Of a stretch of 42,483 bases of DNA, positions 1 through 42,483 are shown in pieces. The stretch is from a virus. Below the pieces are notes generated by a model. It searched no databases. It was not told the DNA's origin and was given only the letters and a program-made list of their open reading frames with translations. The stretch is from IMG/VR virus record IMGVR_UViG_3300022074_000109, positions 1 to 42,483 of that record; one strand, given 5' to 3'. A program made the translations under genes and the position numbers. Position 1 is the stretch's first letter; each line of letters starts with the position of its first letter.

Positions 1-453
1 CACATCATTGAGTGGGAGACACCTAGCGGGTTTATCGTCCGTCAAGATCTCAGGTTCTCACAAACAACAAGAGTTGACACACGACTAATGGGATCAGTCA
101 TTGCATGTCAACTCGCTGTCGGTTTTGGCAAGCCCGATATGCAACATCACATCGGAGCTATATCACCAAATATAGTACATAGCTGGGACTCATCACTTAT
201 ACATTTGGTTTTTAGTGAACCAATGTTTACAAATGGTAACATCCCTTTCGCATGTGTACATGACTGTATATTAGCAAGATCATCTGATATGACTATGATT
301 TCTAGATTAGTCCGTGAAAAGTTTGTCGATATGTACAGCACTAACATACTTCAACAGTGGTGTGAGCAAGTGGATGTACCTTTTGATGACTCAGTAATGG
401 TAAATGATTTAGATATTAAAGAAGTTTTGAACAGTGATTATTTTTTTTGCTAA
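1..453 (+). CDS. T7-type single-subunit RNA polymerase, C-terminal part (5' end outside window)
   Basis: The reading frame is open from base 1, so the gene starts before the window; an ATG at 88 is internal. The last 150 residues match the end of T7 gp1. SPNIVHSWDS corresponds to T7 APNFVHSQDG (His784 region). ACVHDCIL corresponds to ALIHDSFG and contains the catalytic Asp of motif C (T7 Asp812). The C-terminus LNSDYFFC mirrors T7 LESDFAFA, the foot that reaches into the active site. The enzyme transcribes middle and late phage genes. About 700 N-terminal residues (promoter recognition, motifs A and B) are missing here because of the window cut. The stop overlaps the next start (TAATG). Confidence 0.93.
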   Translation, partial: HIIEWETPSGFIVRQDLRFSQTTRVDTRLMGSVIACQLAVGFGKPDMQHHIGAISPNIVHSWDSSLIHLVFSEPMFTNGNIPFACVHDCILARSSDMTMISRLVREKFVDMYSTNILQQWCEQVDVPFDDSVMVNDLDIKEVLNSDYFFC

Positions 454-689: not shown

Positions 690-733
690 TATTCTCTAGC
701 CAATCGTCTGATTATCGTGTACACTTAGGAAAG
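690..733 (+). promoter_or_regulatory. Leader element A of the MarR-like gene (shared with capsid leader)
   Basis: This short leader contains TAGCC, a small hairpin AATC-GTCT-GATT (702-713), the palindrome GTGTACAC (717-724) and GGAAAG (728-733). GGAAAG can serve as the ribosome-binding site for the ATG at 736. The same order of parts, with a different hairpin stem, occurs before the capsid gene (about 15091-15136). A phage-polymerase promoter, an RNA processing site or a protein-binding leader are all possible; the sequence alone does not decide. The rest of 606-735 shows no gene. Confidence 0.4.
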
Positions 734-735
734 CG

Positions 736-1092
736 ATGCCTACCCCAATCACTAATCAATCAGCACAAAAAGCATATATGGTGATCGAATTACTTCGGTC
801 ATCGGGTGAGCGTGAGTTCCCTATGCAACTAGCTTCCTGTTTCTTTTATGTAGCAGCGCATGACGGTTGTGAACAGTCCGAGCTTATCGACGCTGTTAAC
901 ATAAGTCATAGTTCCGTAAGTAGAAATGTTTCATGGTTAGGTGGTAAACACCGACTTGATAATAGGAAAGGTTTAGAATTAGTACGTCGAGAGCGTAATC
1001 CAAAAAATTACAAATCTTGGCTGTTGTTCCTTACACCAAAGGGACGGCAATGGGCGACGCAGATAGAAAATCTTCTTACTGTTCCCACATGA
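736..1092 (+). CDS. MarR-like winged-helix transcription regulator
   Basis: The 118-residue protein looks like a compact winged helix-turn-helix. A helical stretch (FPMQLASCFFYVAAHDG) is followed by a helix-turn-helix-like segment (SELIDAVNISHSSVSRNVSWL) and a wing with basic residues (LVRRERNPKNYKSWLLFLTPKGRQW). The pattern 'xSxSTVSRxVxxL ... GLv.r...p.d.R...l.LT.kG' is typical of MarR-family DNA readers. Cyanopodoviruses carry a MarR-type factor in this neighbourhood that acts during infection. It sits between RNA polymerase and integrase, and its stop overlaps the integrase start (ATGA), so the two are probably co-translated. A role in controlling early transcription or the integration decision is inferred from position. 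Confidence 0.75.
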   Translation: MPTPITNQSAQKAYMVIELLRSSGEREFPMQLASCFFYVAAHDGCEQSELIDAVNISHSSVSRNVSWLGGKHRLDNRKGLELVRRERNPKNYKSWLLFLTPKGRQWATQIENLLTVPT

Positions 1093-2081
1093 CCAGACAA
1101 ATCACCGTGAAGGACTGTGTAGAACACACAGCTCGATCTCACTGGAAAAACATGCGAAGCTACAAAACTTCCATGATGTACGCAAAACTATTTATGGATT
1201 GCCGAAGTCCATCAACACCTATAAAAAAGATGTTGAAGGGCGATTACTGGATCAAAACCCAAAACATGCTTTTGGAAGACCATCCACGCTGGACTCATGC
1301 AACAGTAAATAGAACAATTACAGCAGCTCGCACGGCTATCAACAAGGCGCGAAAGGCTGGACTACATGACCTTGGTTTACCTGAGATTGACAAGTTAAAG
1401 GAAAACAAATGTCGTATGGTTTGGTTGACTAGACATCAAGTAGATAACTTAGCGAACATAGCTGAAGAGATCTTTGACCAAAAAGATTTAAAGGATGCAA
1501 TTTTAGTTAGTGCCTATACAGGTATTAGACAAGATGAATTACTTAAATTAAGAGTCAAAGATTTAGACCAACATCATAAGTCACTTCATGTTGGTGGTAT
1601 GCAGTATTTAGTTACTAAAGCTAATGAGATACGGCATTTACCAATAGGCGAAGTTGACAGAATATGGGATATTCTAGTTAGTCGATGCATACACCTCGAT
1701 TCACGAGACAGAATATTCGGCGATTGTTGGCGTAATGGTCAAGCATTGCGTAGACAATTTTATAAAGTCCGTGACTATTGTGGACTAGGCGATGAAGTAG
1801 TTTGGCATACTCTTCGTCATAGTTACGGAACATGGCTGGCTGAGACTGAATCGGTAAGTACGATTCAAGCTTTGATGGGACACGCTTCAAGCGCAACCAC
1901 TGAGCGATATGTAAAGGTCAACCCAGCTAGATTAAGAACAGCACTATCTTCATTGAATGAAAAACAGTCAAATGAGTTTACTTCAATACCAGAAGATATG
2001 ATTGCCCAGTTGAAAGCTCAGATCAAAAAAGAATTGATGTTGGAGTTTCTCAACAAGGACGAAACCAGCTTAACCGCATAG
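1089..2081 (+). CDS. int: Tyrosine-family integrase
   Basis: This is a site-specific recombinase of 330 residues. All catalytic residues are visible: Arg147 (AYTGIRQDELLKLR), Lys177 (TKANE), His240-x-x-Arg243 (HTLRHSYGTWL), His265 (LMGHASSATT) and nucleophile Tyr274 (ERYVKV). The N-terminal 110 residues form the SAM-like core-binding part. A frame extension to a GTG at 1017 exists, but the ATG at 1089 overlaps the previous stop as ATGA and gives a normal N-terminus. In cyanopodoviruses the integrase is linked to a tRNA-Leu match; a full tRNA-Leu lies at 40162-40243 of this window. The enzyme looks intact. Confidence 0.93.
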   Translation: MTRQITVKDCVEHTARSHWKNMRSYKTSMMYAKLFMDCRSPSTPIKKMLKGDYWIKTQNMLLEDHPRWTHATVNRTITAARTAINKARKAGLHDLGLPEIDKLKENKCRMVWLTRHQVDNLANIAEEIFDQKDLKDAILVSAYTGIRQDELLKLRVKDLDQHHKSLHVGGMQYLVTKANEIRHLPIGEVDRIWDILVSRCIHLDSRDRIFGDCWRNGQALRRQFYKVRDYCGLGDEVVWHTLRHSYGTWLAETESVSTIQALMGHASSATTERYVKVNPARLRTALSSLNEKQSNEFTSIPEDMIAQLKAQIKKELMLEFLNKDETSLTA

Positions 2082-2089
2082 GTTAAAAT

Positions 2090-2164
2090 AAACAGTAGAT
2101 CTCGGCTAATTGCTTTAGTTGTGTTTAGTGGGTTAGCCGAGATCCCTCTCTGTCGCTACTGTTT
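2090..2164 (+). ncRNA. Long nested stem-loop after integrase; loop antisense to early-gene leaders
   Basis: A perfect 12-bp inverted repeat (GATCTCGGCTAA at 2098-2109, TTAGCCGAGATC at 2133-2144) encloses a 23-nt loop. It lies inside a second 9-bp repeat (AAACAGTAG at 2090-2098, CTACTGTTT at 2156-2164). The loop contains TTGTGTTTAGTGG (2119-2131), the exact reverse complement of the leader motif before the genes at 40876 and 41383. Eleven of these bases also match the leader of the minus-strand gene at 38071. An intrinsic terminator follows at 2227-2264. The structure could be a 3' end of integrase mRNA, a small regulatory RNA, or a DNA site for a protein. Confidence 0.55.
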
Positions 2165-2226
2165 GAACAGCACACGCTGGTTTTAGGTTCTGACATAATA
2201 AAGTCCACATAACCAACTGAAAACCA

Positions 2227-2264
2227 CCTCTGATGATTAGTCTCTAGTCACTCAGGGGTTTTTT
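2227..2264 (+). terminator. Rho-independent terminator after integrase
   Basis: The stem CCTCTGA (2227-2233) pairs with TCAGGGG (2252-2258), seven pairs with one G-U. A run of six T (2259-2264) follows. It would end transcripts of the RNA polymerase-MarR-integrase unit before the replication genes. Confidence 0.75.
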
Positions 2265-5165: not shown

Positions 5166-5472
5166 CAAAGCGAACATTGCTGTGTTATTTAAAAAGGAAG
5201 ATTGTAAACCTTGCAAACTAGCACAGAAAAACCTACAAGAAGTTCTACTAAAGAACAAACATCTAGAAGATTATATAAGAGTATTAGATATTAAAAACCA
5301 TACAGCCTTACGAGGTGTTTACTGTCTCGAAAAGTTTCCTACATTATTGCTTTTATCCAAGCATGGACAAGAAATAAAACGAACAGTTGGTGGACGTAAC
5401 TTAACAAAAGAACTCTTTTTTACAGTACTAGATGAGGTCAGAAAAGGGAGGTCATATGATCTTTCTAGTTGA
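5152..5472 (+). CDS. Thioredoxin-like protein next to DNA polymerase
   Basis: The 106-residue protein has a thioredoxin/glutaredoxin fold signature: active site CKPC at 18-21 after a beta strand (IAVLFKKED), and the cis-proline loop KFPTL at Pro63. It overlaps the end of the primase-helicase gene by 14 bases and the start of the polymerase gene by 17. It could reduce the phage ribonucleotide reductase. It could also be a phage-supplied clamp for the polymerase, as host thioredoxin is for T7 gp5. The polymerase's thioredoxin-binding region seems shortened, so the second role is uncertain. Confidence 0.85.
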   Translation: MNRFNKANIAVLFKKEDCKPCKLAQKNLQEVLLKNKHLEDYIRVLDIKNHTALRGVYCLEKFPTLLLLSKHGQEIKRTVGGRNLTKELFFTVLDEVRKGRSYDLSS

Positions 5473-8429: not shown

Positions 8430-8786
8430 ATGCACTATGACTTTCAAGGTCAGGCAATCCAATTTAGATTGCAAATGGATCAGCCTATAGGAGCAAAAGC
8501 TGATCTTAAATTACAAAGAGAACTTATCCGTGAAGAGTACTGGGAGTTTAACCAAGCGATAGCTGACTCAGAACCAGATGAAAATAAACTTAAAGAACTA
8601 GCAGATATAGTTTTTGTTTGCTTCCAATATGCCACCGCCGCTGGCTGGGAACTTGATGAAGCTTTAGACAGAGTATTTAAAAGCAACATGTCTAAGTTAG
8701 AGAATGGCAAGCCAGTAAAAAATGCCGCTGGCAAAGTAATCAAAGGTCGAAACTACAAACCCCCTTATTTAGAAGACATAGTATGA
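8430..8786 (+). CDS. mazG: MazG-like / phosphoribosyl-ATP pyrophosphohydrolase-like NTP pyrophosphatase
   Basis: The all-alpha protein of 118 residues has the metal-binding pattern of MazG-type NTP pyrophosphatases: EExxE in REEYWEFNQAI and ExxD in KELADIVFVCF. The family tail follows (VFKSNMSKLENGKPV ... GRNYKPPYLEDIV). These enzymes hydrolyse nucleoside triphosphates to monophosphates. In cyanophages they are thought to adjust nucleotide pools or alarmones. Its stop overlaps the RNR alpha start (ATGA), placing it in a nucleotide-supply operon. Confidence 0.88.
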   Translation: MHYDFQGQAIQFRLQMDQPIGAKADLKLQRELIREEYWEFNQAIADSEPDENKLKELADIVFVCFQYATAAGWELDEALDRVFKSNMSKLENGKPVKNAAGKVIKGRNYKPPYLEDIV

Positions 8787-15043: not shown

Positions 15044-15203
15044 TCGGTTAAGCGGTCTGGGGGTGCAAGTCCCCCTATCTCAATTTCCCAATAGCCTGAT
15101 ACGTCAGATAACTACTGGGGTGTACACCTCGGAAAGAGGGTCAAATCTTTCAAAAACTTAGACATGTCGAAATCGTAAATAATTTTAATAGGAGATATAG
15201 ACC
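15044..15203 (+). promoter_or_regulatory. Structured leader of the capsid gene (element B)
   Basis: This 160-base gap is rich in hairpins. GGGGG-TGCAAGT-CCCCC (about 15059-15075) resembles a tRNA T-arm. A longer stem, CCCA..TAG (15087-15094) with CTA.TGGG (about 15112-15119), encloses CTGA-TACG-TCAG. The palindrome GGTGTACACC (15119-15128) is followed by CGGAAAG. The last parts share order and sequence with the leader of the MarR-like gene (690-733). AGGAGATATAG before 15204 is the ribosome-binding site. A phage promoter plus 5' stability or processing structure for the most abundant late mRNA is a fair guess. Confidence 0.5.
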
Positions 15204-37328: not shown

Positions 37329-37605
37329 ATATAAGGTAGTTTTTAAGACATCAACATTTAAAAAGCTGGGCAAGATCATTAGTTCGATCTTCCCAGCACC
37401 TATCGCTTGGGTCTTAAAAGCTTATCTATTCGACTTCGAGATCAAGTACCTCGAAACTAAAACTAAACTTGCTGTAGATAAAGCTATAGCTGACTACAAA
37501 AAAGATTTAGAAGAGATAGCAAAACCAGTAGTCACAAAAAAACCGTCCGAGGTGGACGGCTTGTTTGATATGGAAATTAGTCGCGATCAAGATTTTGAAA
37601 CGTGA
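37306..37605 (+). CDS. Hypothetical protein (99 aa) with hydrophobic segment, GTG start
   Basis: The GTG at 37306 starts inside the preceding micro-gene. The product has a basic start, one hydrophobic stretch (IISSIFPAPIAWVLKAYLF), then a long charged helix (KTKLAVDKAIADYKKDLEEI) and an acidic end. The topology could suit a membrane-associated lysis or virion protein. It converges with the minus-strand peptidase gene, overlapping it by 29 bases. Confidence 0.55.
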   Translation: MQKKERNKYKVVFKTSTFKKLGKIISSIFPAPIAWVLKAYLFDFEIKYLETKTKLAVDKAIADYKKDLEEIAKPVVTKKPSEVDGLFDMEISRDQDFET

Positions 37606-38071
37606 CATAACCTCTTAGCTTTCTAGGTCTAGTACCACGGCTATCGTAGGTGTCCCAAACTGCGCCGTCTCTAACGGCAACCCAGTGCATTGGTAGTAAT
37701 GCTATGCAATGGCTTGGTATATTCTCTTTGTTAAACTTGAAATCAAATGTTTTCATGTTCGTAAAAGTAGAATCAATGCCAAGGTATGAAAGAGTGTCCA
37801 TAAGATCTTTTTTACCTAAGCCCCATGTAGCTGTAGCTTTAGATCTGCTGTATGTAACATACCCGCCGCCATAATTAGTACGAACAGTGGGTGCGTTCAT
37901 TTGTTTCATCTTAGTAGCAGCGTTCCAGACTGTTTGATAGTCCAGACCTAATGCTAAACAGATAGCCCTTGTTCCACAATCACCATGTCTTTCCTTTTTA
38001 GGATGTGGATTGCGAAGCATCAATCTTAAACCTGATTGATGAGAGGATTTAGGAAAAGCTAAAGTAGCCAT
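37577..38071 (-). CDS. Cysteine-peptidase-like protein (papain/C39-like), minus strand
   Basis: This is the only clear protein gene on the minus strand. The 164-residue product has a likely catalytic Cys32 in HGDCGTRAICLALG, His129 in PMHWVAVRDG and Asp140 in VWDTYDS, the Cys-His-Asp order of papain-like folds. Target is unknown: peptidoglycan (an endolysin role), a host protein or virion processing are all possible. Upstream on the minus strand is a TATAAT box (38124-38129) and a leader with CACTAAACACA, matching the early genes at 40-41 kb. It is therefore probably made early by host RNA polymerase. Confidence 0.75.
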   Translation of the reverse strand: MATLAFPKSSHQSGLRLMLRNPHPKKERHGDCGTRAICLALGLDYQTVWNAATKMKQMNAPTVRTNYGGGYVTYSRSKATATWGLGKKDLMDTLSYLGIDSTFTNMKTFDFKFNKENIPSHCIALLPMHWVAVRDGAVWDTYDSRGTRPRKLRGYVTFQNLDRD

Positions 38072-38132
38072 AATTAACTCGATGTGTTTAGTGAACTTGA
38101 CGAACGTTTAGTGCGTCACTGTCATTATAGCA
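38072..38132 (-). promoter_or_regulatory. Host-type promoter and motif leader for the minus-strand peptidase
   Basis: Read on the minus strand, CATGCTATAAT contains a -10 box (38124-38129) with an extended TGC. CACTAAAC occurs twice, 20 bases apart (38113-38106 and 38093-38086). The second copy extends to CACTAAACACA. The distance from -10 to this motif (29 nt) nearly equals that in the early promoters at 40.8 and 41.3 kb. On the plus strand the same bases form the upstream region of the large terminase gene. Confidence 0.65.
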
Positions 38133-39889: not shown

Positions 39890-40161
39890 AGCTCATTACC
39901 AATATGTAAGCAGGGAAAGTGGTGCGTCCCTGTGTGGATATGCGGTGAGATTGACCCCTTGAAATTCTAGGGGTCTTTCCTATGTATTCGCTAAACCCCC
40001 ATTACATCGAGTTTTTTGAGCGTCCTCTCGAATGTAACTAAACCTCTATAAAAGAGTCTCAATCAAGCTGAAAACCCAGTGTTTCTAAGCGAGCGTAGCG
40101 AGCGTCCTTTTACCCTAAACATATAAAGGTCTAATCAAGGCACTCCTTATACCGTCTTATA
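39890..40161 (+). other. Non-coding stretch after large terminase; probable genome-end region
   Basis: No gene is seen in these 272 bases. They hold hairpins CAGGGA/TCCCTG (39911-39932) and GACCCCT/AGGGGTC (39953-39975), and the direct repeat GCGAGCGTA-GCGAGCGTC (about 40089-40106). In T7-like phages the terminal repeat and concatemer junction lie directly after the large terminase gene. The terminal repeat is therefore likely here, although its limits cannot be read from one permuted copy. Confidence 0.5.
39953..39980 (+). terminator. Terminator-like hairpin after large terminase
   Basis: GACCCCT (39953-39959) pairs with AGGGGTC (39969-39975) over a nine-base loop, followed by TTTCCT. The T-run is short, so strength is moderate. 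Confidence 0.6.
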
Positions 40162-40243
40162 TGCGGTTGAAAGGACTTGAACCTTCACGAATTACTTCAC
40201 TTGTGCCTAAAACAAGCGCGTCTACCAATTCCGCCACAACCGC
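40162..40243 (-). tRNA. tRNA-Leu (anticodon UAG), complete
   Basis: On the minus strand the acceptor stem GCGGTTG pairs with CAACCGC. The D-arm has AATTGGTAGA, the anticodon arm is CTTGT-TTTAGGC-ACAAG with anticodon TAG, a long variable arm follows as expected for Leu, and the T-arm has GGTTCAAGTCC. The discriminator is A and CCA is not encoded. All parts are intact, so it could be functional (reads CUA). Known cyanopodoviruses with an integrase carry only a short tRNA-Leu match thought to be attP. The 3' end faces the terminase side, as at an integration junction. Confidence 0.95.
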
Positions 40244-40264
40244 ATTTAATTATTCTATCTGATT

Positions 40265-40492: not shown

Positions 40493-40875
40493 GGTGTCGA
40501 AATTTTTATCATAAATTTTCAAAGGCATAACGATATGACCGCCGCCGCGATTTCCCCGTATAGGGGTCGCAAAAACCTATAATATGACTTTTTTTTGTAT
40601 AGTGTTGCTACATAGACCCTAAATAAATATTTTTTTATGGCTGGGATCTATTGGTATGACTGACTTTGATGCTGGTTTTATAGTCTTACTTCAACTCTTT
40701 TTATCAAGTCGCAACCGTCGCAAAGATGAGACGCTCTTTGTCTCTCTCTATCTGTCCGTTTTTAATTTATTACATTTTGTTAACATCATTACCACTAAAC
40801 CAGTTGAGCATGCTTATAATTCTTTTAGATATTACTTTTATGTAATGTCCACTAAACACAACACAAGGTATTTAA
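40493..40875 (+). promoter_or_regulatory. Early regulatory region with two host-type promoters
   Basis: The first promoter has a -10 TATAAT at 40578-40583. Just upstream is an inverted repeat GCGA-CCCC-GTATA-GGGG-TCGC (40547-40570) that looks like an operator. The transcript would pass an eight-codon reading frame at 40637. The second promoter has CCACTAAAC (40792-40800) in the -35 region and TATAAT at 40815-40820. Its leader carries CCACTAAACACAAC at 40849-40862 and AAGG before the ATG at 40876. A 76-codon frame (40656-40886) crosses this promoter and is doubtful. Confidence 0.6.
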
Positions 40876-41028
40876 ATGTCTTTTGAAATCCGATCTTATT
40901 CACCTAATACTGAAAAGGTGACTTATACAACATTCAATGATTATGCCGCCGCGCTTCATTGGATGGGCGTTTTAAATAACGTAGGCTTACAGTCTTCAAT
41001 GACTATTAAACCAGCGGGGAAAAACTAA
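40876..41028 (+). CDS. Small early protein (50 aa)
   Basis: The ATG follows the repeated leader CCACTAAACACAAC-ACAAGGTATTTAA, in which AAGG is the likely ribosome-binding site. The product (SFEIRSYSPNTEKVTYTTFN ... WMGVLNNVGLQSS) has beta and helix parts and no known family. Its stop overlaps the next start (TAATG). It is probably among the first proteins made after infection. Confidence 0.65.
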   Translation: MSFEIRSYSPNTEKVTYTTFNDYAAALHWMGVLNNVGLQSSMTIKPAGKN

Positions 41029-41213
41029 TGCTATATCCTAAGTATTGTGAAATATGCGCTAGGCATAAAGTAAAACCGACTCAGGTTATAGCTGACGGCA
41101 ACATTGCAGACATTTTAAATAGAGATAAAGGTAAACATCTTGAATTCCATGAAAATTTACTTGATCAATATTTAAAAGTTTATTATCACAAGGGAAAACC
41201 AGCTAAGATGTAA
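41028..41213 (+). CDS. Small early protein (61 aa) with Cys pair
   Basis: It is coupled to the previous gene by TAATG. The product has YCEICARHKVKP, a Cys-x2-Cys that could bind zinc, and a helical remainder (ADILNRDKGKHLEFHENLLD). An intrinsic terminator follows at once (41233-41258), so these two genes form a short operon. No family is recognised. Confidence 0.65.
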   Translation: MLYPKYCEICARHKVKPTQVIADGNIADILNRDKGKHLEFHENLLDQYLKVYYHKGKPAKM

Positions 41214-41232
41214 ACATTCACGCGACCTCAAA

Positions 41233-41258
41233 CCGTCCTTAATATGGGGCGGTTTTTT
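41233..41258 (+). terminator. Intrinsic terminator of the short early operon
   Basis: CCGTCC (41233-41238) pairs with GGGCGG (41247-41252), followed by six T. This is a classical host-type terminator that separates the small early genes from ardC. Confidence 0.85.
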
Positions 41259-41271
41259 ATTGTGGTTAATT

Positions 41272-41377
41272 AATTGTTACAGATTGTAAACAATAGGTCA
41301 CAAGTGGAAGTGAACTTATATATAATTTAGTCAGATACACAATTCTGTAGTATCCACTAAACACAACAAAAGGTATT
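41272..41377 (+). promoter_or_regulatory. Host-type promoter and repeated leader of ardC
   Basis: A -10 box TATAAT lies at 41321-41326. An imperfect palindrome TTGTTACA-GAT-TGTAAACAA is upstream (about 41275-41293). The leader has CCACTAAACACAAC at 41354-41367, followed by AAAAGGTATT with the ribosome-binding AAGG. The motif lies 27 nt after the -10, against 28 nt at the 40.8 kb promoter. The two leaders differ by one base over 24 positions, so they may share one control. Confidence 0.7.
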
Positions 41378-41382
41378 CACAA

Positions 41383-42354
41383 ATGGCATTAGCTACCACC
41401 ACAAAACCAAAAACAAAAAAGCAAACACCTGAAGAAAAAATTTGCAGTGAGGTCATCAAGTTATTAGAACAAGGCGTGCAACCATGGCAAAAAGAATGGA
41501 CAACCAGTACAAGCGCATCTTATAGAAACTTCATTACGGGTCACAAATACAGCGGCGCAAATATCGCACTGTTATCCCTTTACGAATCAGTTCGAGGTTA
41601 TAGATCTACTTTATATTGTGGATTTGCACAAGCTCGCTCTAAAAACTGGACAGTCAAAAAAGGCTCTGAAGCTTCTTACATTATGTATCCAAAACCAGTT
41701 AAATATGATAAGACAGACAAAGACGGCAACCCAGTTAAAGACAAAGACGGCAACGTAATTAAAGTTCAATACATGAGTTTTAGTTGTGTTGCTGTTTTCA
41801 ATGCTGATTGTTTAATGGGTCTAGACCCTAAAAGTCAGGATGCACTAGAGCAAGCATTAAAGGCTGAAGAACGTAACATCAAAGAAAACATTAACGATAT
41901 AGAAACAAGAAAATCAAAAGCCTTTAATGTTTTAGATTCATACATGAAGCGCGAGCAAATAGAGTATAGAGAAAAACAGGAACGTGCTTTTTATTCACCA
42001 TCACTTGATCAAGTGGGCATGCCCTCACCTGTTCAGTTCACCAACCCTGATGCATTTTTAGCTACTCTTTCACATGAATGTATTCACTCAACAAAAAAGG
42101 CTAGCCGCTTAGATCGCTCATTTGGTGCTTCAATATTTGGCAATGATGCATACGCTCGCGAGGAATTAGTTGCAGAATTAGGGGCGCTAATCCTCACTAG
42201 ATCGCTCAACGTAGGCTCAAGGATAGAAAACCACGCGAGCTATCTTAAGAGCTGGTTAAGCGGCATTAAAGAGGATAACAGCTATCTTTTTAAATCACTT
42301 GCTCACGCCAACCGCGCCGCAAATTACATACTTGAGCCACAAGAAAAGGCTTAA
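41383..42354 (+). CDS. ardC: ArdC-like antirestriction protein
   Basis: The 323-residue protein has both parts of ArdC. The N-terminal single-strand DNA-binding domain (about 15-145) contains GVQPWQKEW, GHKYSGANIALLSL and NWTVKKGSEASYIMYPKP. The C-terminal zincin-like domain has the zinc motif HECIH at 231-235 (LSHECIHSTKKASRLDR) and a likely third ligand in REELVAELGAL (Glu265). ArdC proteins protect incoming DNA from restriction. Position in the early region, under a host-type promoter, is the place where T7 carries Ocr. Two eight-residue DKDGN repeats come from a 24-base duplication (41716-41754). No homologue is expected in standard T7-like phages. Confidence 0.92.
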   Translation: MALATTTKPKTKKQTPEEKICSEVIKLLEQGVQPWQKEWTTSTSASYRNFITGHKYSGANIALLSLYESVRGYRSTLYCGFAQARSKNWTVKKGSEASYIMYPKPVKYDKTDKDGNPVKDKDGNVIKVQYMSFSCVAVFNADCLMGLDPKSQDALEQALKAEERNIKENINDIETRKSKAFNVLDSYMKREQIEYREKQERAFYSPSLDQVGMPSPVQFTNPDAFLATLSHECIHSTKKASRLDRSFGASIFGNDAYAREELVAELGALILTRSLNVGSRIENHASYLKSWLSGIKEDNSYLFKSLAHANRAANYILEPQEKA

Positions 42355-42370
42355 GTAATCAAAACTCAAT

Positions 42371-42406
42371 AGCCGTCTCACTGATCAAGTGGGGCGGCTC
42401 TTTGTT
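42371..42406 (+). terminator. Intrinsic terminator after ardC
   Basis: AGCCGTCTCACT (42371-42382) pairs over all twelve positions (two G-U) with AGTGGGGCGGCT (42388-42399) around a five-base loop. CTTTGTT follows. It is one of the strongest hairpins in the window. Confidence 0.85.
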
Positions 42407-42454: not shown

Positions 42455-42470
42455 GTTTACACTTAGACAA

Positions 42471-42483
42471 ATGAATATAGGAT
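42471..42483 (+). CDS. Start of a further early gene, cut by the window end
   Basis: An ATG at 42471 follows the promoter at 42426-42454, and the frame is open to the last base. Only four codons are visible, so nothing can be said about the product. Confidence 0.25.

Follow-up and report, generated by a model that had tools for sequence, protein, structure and literature searches.

A hairpin between the integrase gene and the attP-like core of a T7-like phage carries a loop complementary to early-gene leaders

Introduction

In phage lambda, the sib hairpin lies in the 3′ region of int, close to attP and beyond it, and retroregulates int in cis through RNase III. The hairpin described here differs from sib in lying between int and attP and in having a loop antisense to genes other than int. 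In enteric bacteria, the chromosomally encoded sRNA GcvB has an unstructured R1 region, a GU-rich accessible segment that pairs with CA-rich, translation-enhancing ACA-motif segments just upstream of the Shine–Dalgarno (SD) sequence of several mRNAs (PMC3879156). The present loop (GUUGUGUUU) and its predicted leader targets (ACACAAC) are of the same kind, except that here the segment is the loop of a strong hairpin beside a phage integrase gene; the resemblance would be one of way of working, and no homology is claimed. OppZ and CarZ are 3′-UTR-derived autoregulatory sRNAs that inhibit translation start by pairing, and an RNA from the present locus would likewise come from an operon 3′ end and be directed against mRNA translation starts. 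However, OppZ and CarZ are processed by RNase E and regulate the operon from which they derive (PMC7398697), whereas the targets predicted here are other early units.

In the T7-like phage LUZ100, a marR–int operon is closed by a terminator after int and a phage promoter drives the RNA polymerase (RNAP) gene; the order MarR-like regulator, int, terminator is the same at our locus, but a hairpin with an antisense loop was not found described in the accessible part of that article (PMC10134795). Phage RNAs that act by base pairing include, in the available part of a further source, CfrI of S-PM2, c4 RNA and AgvB, of which CfrI differs from the present case in being tied to the psbA region of S-PM2 (PMC12197685). 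For T7-like phages, no loop directed against early leaders as a family was found described in the accessible portions of the open-access literature (PMC12197685 and others). By analogy, the hairpin would work like known multi-target antisense RNAs and 3′-UTR-derived sRNAs (PMC7398697), and what appears new is that, in such a phage, a single loop would target the early leaders as a set. In well-studied relatives integration happens and stable lysogens have not been found (PMC8776855).

Results

The sequence analysed (hereafter the window, 42,483 nucleotides) is a 42.5-kb fragment from a T7-like phage that belongs to a small group of marine viruses. The terminase is 71% identical to that of cyanophage SS120-1 (Prochlorococcus), with Synechococcus phages next, and the RNAP, compared through the relative L005, shows 48% identity to that of SS120-1, again followed by Synechococcus phages. 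The nearest named relatives have Prochlorococcus and Synechococcus as hosts. No DNA relatives of the window were found in the phage collection, and no close relatives among bacterial genomes searched through the integrase. L005 is a 45.3-kb contig that is probably complete, since its ends have at least 50 nt in common; its early genes are, in order, ardC, a small ORF, the T7-like RNAP, a small ORF, a MarR-like regulator and the integrase, followed by the hairpin, the attP-like core, the terminator, and then ssb, endonuclease and primase. The features of the window are listed in Table 1.

Table 1. Features of the int–attP region and of the early leaders in the window
Feature	Position	Strand	Details
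T7-like RNAP, 3′ end	1–453		
Candidate phage-RNAP promoter GTGTACACTTAGGAAAG	717–733	+	Upstream of marR–int–hairpin; 3 copies in the window, kept in relatives
MarR-like regulator, 5′ of int	736–1092	+	PHROG 9665 4e-35; Pfam MarR_2 below cut-off
Tyrosine integrase (int)	1089–2081	+	PF00589 8e-20
Outer stem AAACAGTAG/CTACTGTTT enclosing the hairpin	2090–2098/2155–2163 (2090–2163)	+	Core kept in 6/6 clade genomes
Hairpin, candidate antisense RNA	2098–2144	+	Perfect 12-bp stem, 23-nt G/U-rich loop; MFE −20.8, z −5.7
Stem arms GATCTCGGCTAA/TTAGCCGAGATC	2098–2109/2133–2144		
Loop TTGCTTTAGTTGTGTTTAGTGGG	2110–2132		23 nt
Loop segment, exact reverse complement of leader motif CCACTAAACACAAC	2118–2131	−	
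attP-like core CACACGCTGGTTTTAGGTTCTG	2171–2192	+	tRNA-Leu anticodon-arm sequence; position homologous to cyanopodophage attP
Intrinsic-terminator-like hairpin and T run	2226–2264	+	MFE −17.9, z −3.9; stem changes in step between relatives
Gene under leader 3, weaker predicted target	37577–38071	−	PHROG 3754 2e-9; duplex −19.5 kcal/mol
Leader 3 (divergent type)	38072–38129	−	TATAAT, 5′ hairpin, CACTAAACACA 38083–38093
Leader 1	40815–40875	+	TATAAT 40815–40820, predicted TSS 40827, 5′ hairpin 40828–40849, motif 40849–40862, AAGG 40865–40868
Two small ORFs under leader 1, the first a predicted target	40876–41213	+	Without family match
Leader 2 (ardC)	41321–41382	+	TATAAT 41321–41326, predicted TSS 41333, 5′ hairpin, motif 41354–41367, AAAAGG 41368–41373
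ArdC-like antirestriction gene, predicted target	41383–42354	+	ArdcN 5e-24, MPTase-PolyVal 2e-35

The hairpin is located between int and the attP-like tRNA-Leu core, that is, in the attP arm. This core has a shorter tRNA identity than known cyanophage attP sites, so the host tRNA or the host may differ. The window also encodes a tRNA-Leu (40161–40244, minus strand) whose isotype matches that of the core; some integrating phages show the same agreement. The terminator-like hairpin beyond the core is probably the 3′ end of the int transcript or of a candidate sRNA; the terminator scan detected the int terminator in L005 but, under the rule of the scan, not in the window. Between this terminator and the next gene, GTGTCTATTCTCAATTACAGGTA (about 2264–2287) is invariant in 6/6 clade genomes and is a possible promoter or regulatory site. 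The sequence GTGTACACTNNGNAAA, a candidate promoter of the phage's own RNAP, occurs at 717–733, 15120–15136 and 42455–42471, before marR, the capsid gene and the RNAP region respectively, and is kept in relatives (L005, positions 5357, 8196 and 22194). In distant cyanopodophages, an element of a candidate phage promoter family, TCCACTNNG, lies right after the int terminator and before the next gene (for example TTCCACTAAGCCAACC in S-TIP28 and SS120-1). A search for a promoter of a separate sRNA from the hairpin found no good one; TATAAT is present only in L004 and L005, where it lacks a −35 element, and a sigma-70 promoter proper to the hairpin RNA is not claimed.

The original prediction described a perfect 12-bp stem with a 23-nt loop between int and the terminator, which proved exact base for base. 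This is the sole perfect inverted repeat in the window whose stem reaches 12 bp or more and whose loop spans 8–32 nt. The loop is predicted to be unpaired with a probability of 0.61–0.65, and a search of the hairpin with Rfam covariance models gave no family match. The hairpin is present in six genomes (the window, L002, L003, L004, L005 and L323), and a 56-nt block that includes both stem arms is identical in all six, in an alignment whose surrounding 374 columns are 83–96% identical pairwise. No related hairpin with the same stem and another loop was found in IMG/VR; the hairpin is confined to the clade and always identical. About a hundred bases further on, the terminator stem shows compensated changes among the clade genomes. 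A stem frozen in six genomes, when the stems of the terminator and of the leaders (see below) vary with compensation, suggests a constraint at the level of the sequence, for example recognition at the protein/DNA level.

In distant cyanopodophages, whose integrases are 34–43% identical, the homologous position, some 31 nt ahead of the tRNA-Leu anticodon-arm core, is occupied by a short hairpin. Their loops are typically of 4–8 nt and are not antisense to leaders beyond the control, while their stems partly covary (full 6-bp pairing in 14 of 46 regions, versus a mean of 5.6 and a maximum of 11 in 500 swaps). Short, partly covarying hairpins before a tRNA-Leu attP core are found in many integrase-bearing cyanopodophages (L010–L018, L213–L287). 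Across 75 distant int loci there was no excess of loop/leader complementarity, the distribution of the longest complements being that of the reversed-sequence control. Because distant relatives have a short hairpin there without antisense, the enlarged antisense loop appears to be a clade-specific addition; the clade may have enlarged an ancestral int/attP hairpin and given its loop the antisense sequence. In cyanophage SS120-1 (L016, about 8440–8495, before marR), TTTAGTGGGA and TTCCACTAAG can pair in cis around a smaller hairpin; the window has these complementary words too, but in SS120-1 their pairing is local.

Leaders were searched in the clade contigs with the promoter signature GTGGAA-N(5-14)-TATAAT, and all ten promoters of this type precede a 5′-proximal hairpin and CACTAAACACA or CACTAAGCACA; leader 1 of the window, which has no GTGGAA element, is an eleventh. 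A common plan was observed in 11/11 leaders: a host −10 box, a 5′-terminal hairpin, an unpaired CACTAAACACA and a start codon. In leaders of the ribosome-binding-site type (those of the window with the motif at 40849 and 41354, and those of L001, L004 and L005), the predicted transcript starts with AGAUA, the hairpin begins at +2, the motif follows immediately, and the AUG lies 13–15 nt after the motif with the SD sequence between them; in leaders of the divergent type the motif abuts the start region. The motif is predicted to be unpaired with probabilities of 0.80–0.93 in the former type (0.92–0.93 in the two window leaders) and of 0.68–0.92 in the latter. The 5′ hairpin stems differ between leaders yet keep their pairing, as their own arms sum to −64.0 kcal/mol versus a mean of −29.7 for swapped arms, and none of 5000 swaps was as good. 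This covariation indicates that the leader acts as RNA, irrespective of the role of the motif. One leader design stands before ardC and before two small ORFs in the window, and before still other genes in L001, so that the leader belongs to the promoter and not to the gene. The leader units are short, with terminator-like hairpins at 41230–41255 and 42371–42399 in the window and at 5266–5288 in L005. Those of the window lie before the int region, and the predicted targets are thus not in the operon of the hairpin as they are for 3′-UTR-derived autoregulatory sRNAs, read-through being possible. Relaxed patterns yielded no new leader, the remaining matches being due to chance. Leaders with CACTAAACACAA, TATAAT and a hairpin in the T4-like contigs L140 (1673–1740) and L161 (minus strand) were judged probably fortuitous, among 70 pattern matches.

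The motif CCACTAAACACAAC had been reported before the ribosome-binding sites of the genes at 40876 and 41383, and it does lie directly upstream of their SD sequences; the 11-base version before the minus-strand gene at 38071 (CACTAAACACA) and the AAAG with which the ardC-leader match resumes after one mismatch were found as described. The window holds three exact copies of the 14-mer, one on the minus strand in the hairpin loop and two on the plus strand in leaders 1 and 2. Of 2000 shuffled loops, one was complementary to the real 40-nt leaders over at least 14 nt, and none of 400 shuffled leader sets gave such a match with the real loop. A bare 14-nt complement somewhere in 42 kb is unremarkable, and a scan of viral contigs with the 14-mer only gave, among the matches listed, mostly chance ones; it is the framing by a hairpin loop and by leaders that is remarkable. 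In the duplex prediction proposed originally, the two window leaders rank 1 and 2 of 50 gene starts (−27.4 and −26.4 kcal/mol), with net energies similar to that of leader 1 at other starts among the 50. Outside the 14-mer, T(−1) and G/A(−2) of the leaders pair with the loop only as RNA (U–G, G–U or A–U), and T(−1) against the C of the loop copy breaks the identity as DNA. The A-to-G change at position 8 of leader B in L005 is wobble-compatible with the loop, and the leader variants A1, U13 and A14 are not; five pairing-compatible variant positions versus three incompatible ones lend weak support to RNA pairing. The comparison of loop and leader changes among relatives offers no pair to score, as both sides are invariant in the clade and both are absent outside it. 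As in trans-acting antisense sRNAs, the predicted structure exposes a segment whose complement lies in the ribosome-binding region of several mRNAs.

Discussion

The loop–leader match and its conservation are real, and from them we infer a hairpin RNA, its pairing in vivo, its timing and its effect. That this RNA shuts off the early mRNAs driven by host promoters, through loop–leader pairing, is a proposal to which we give about an even chance. Of the readings considered, an antisense RNA acting as a switch on early leaders agrees best with the anatomy, namely a motif predicted to be unpaired 5′ of the SD sequence, top-ranking duplex energies and a loop copy that does not score as a promoter. 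The hairpin would form the active head of an RNA encoded by the phage, which could be the 3′ UTR of the marR–int transcript or a short species of about 165 nt that stops at the terminator (2264). Through the G/U-rich loop of 23 nt, this RNA would pair with the single-stranded C/A-rich motif between the 5′-terminal hairpin and the SD sequence of immediate-early mRNAs made by the host RNAP (ArdC and others), and this 14-bp pairing, which extends partly to the SD, would keep the 30S subunit from binding, target the mRNA for decay, or do both. Since marR, int and the hairpin follow the candidate phage-RNAP promoter at 717, the RNA would rise with the takeover by the phage polymerase and turn off the genes expressed first.

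It had been proposed, from the position of the hairpin between int and the terminator, that the amount of this RNA follows integrase transcription. As both int and the hairpin lie downstream of marR and of the candidate promoter at 717, the RNA may follow phage RNAP activity. Similarly, of the lysis/lysogeny or early shut-off switch proposed in the original prediction, it is immediate-early shut-off that fits better, because the leader-driven units are short and end at terminators. A broader version, in which one RNA hairpin is a master off-switch for the whole host-promoter-driven early regulon, tied to integration and reporting the state of the phage, seems to us quite unlikely. In that version, with the hairpin between int and the attP core and the terminator on the far side of the core, the RNA would become joined to the host tRNA-Leu region upon integration, which would alter its amount or its form.

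A rather unlikely explanation is that the shared 14-mer is a double-stranded DNA site, either an arm-type site for the integrase or the operator of a regulator, for example a MarR-like one, present in the attP arm and in the early leaders; integration or repression would then be coupled to early transcription, the inverted repeat being part of a protein–DNA complex. The invariance of the 56-nt block with both stem arms is expected of a DNA site, the hairpin does lie between int and the attP core, and past the core the clade has GTCCAC(A/T)TAACC, the L005 version of which (GTCCACTTAACCAAAC) is three mismatches from the leader motif. However, the site downstream of the core has six mismatches in the window, the motif is not palindromic, position −1 is T in the leaders and C in the loop copy, and distant phages have no consistent CCACTAA word in both arms. 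The resemblance in the P′ arm (GTCCACTTAACC), judged by eye, is partial, is seen in the clade only and is inconsistent in distant phages. A DNA site also leaves unexplained the framing by a hairpin loop and the covarying RNA hairpin that precedes the motif in every leader. The leader motif might otherwise be a phage-RNAP promoter of the CACTNNG family, the loop copy being a leftward promoter that makes antisense RNA to int, which we regard as improbable. Candidate phage promoters (GTGTACACTNNGNAAA) do recur before RNAP, marR and capsid genes, distant cyanopodophages have TCCACTNNG right after the int terminator, and in the phage-promoter profile the two leader motifs score 2.8–4.9 bits (ranks 19 and 39 of 85,000; candidate promoters score 20–29 bits) and leader B of L005 scores 14 bits (rank 4 of 91,000). 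The motif may therefore, from these leader ranks, have a DNA-level origin or role. In contrast, the score of the loop copy is −13 bits, at about rank 4100 of 85,000, which makes a leftward promoter in the loop unlikely; moreover the consensus G is missing from most leader copies and, leaders aside, no replication or structural gene of the complete relative L005 has the exact motif in front of it. Three findings, the weak likeness of the leader motif to a candidate phage promoter, the location of the hairpin in the attP arm and its frozen stem, lend the DNA-site explanation some probability.

The hairpin could also act on the int message itself, through stability or retroregulation like lambda sib, the leader match being a by-product. 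Many distant relatives indeed have a short hairpin between int and attP with partly covarying stems, but their small loops are not antisense and the 23-nt invariant loop exists in the clade only, so that we hold this to be just as improbable as the promoter. Finally, the loop and the motif could be two independently constrained, low-complexity sequences that resemble each other by chance. Their composition is biased, one shuffled loop in 2000 matched equally well, and the match was picked out of a whole-window scan; a perfect 14-mer, three leaders in one genome, and a loop and motif unchanged in all genomes having them render chance very improbable.

The antisense reading bears on how the first wave of gene expression is brought to an end in T7-like marine phages, and on what role the integrase region plays although stable lysogens have not been found in tested relatives (PMC8776855). 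The leader design, with its 5′-terminal covarying hairpin, unpaired CA-rich element and SD sequence, would be a useful rule for spotting early promoters in such phages. If the antisense reading is true, a single hairpin directed at every host-promoter-driven leader would give the phage a compact means of shutting off early genes at the RNA level.
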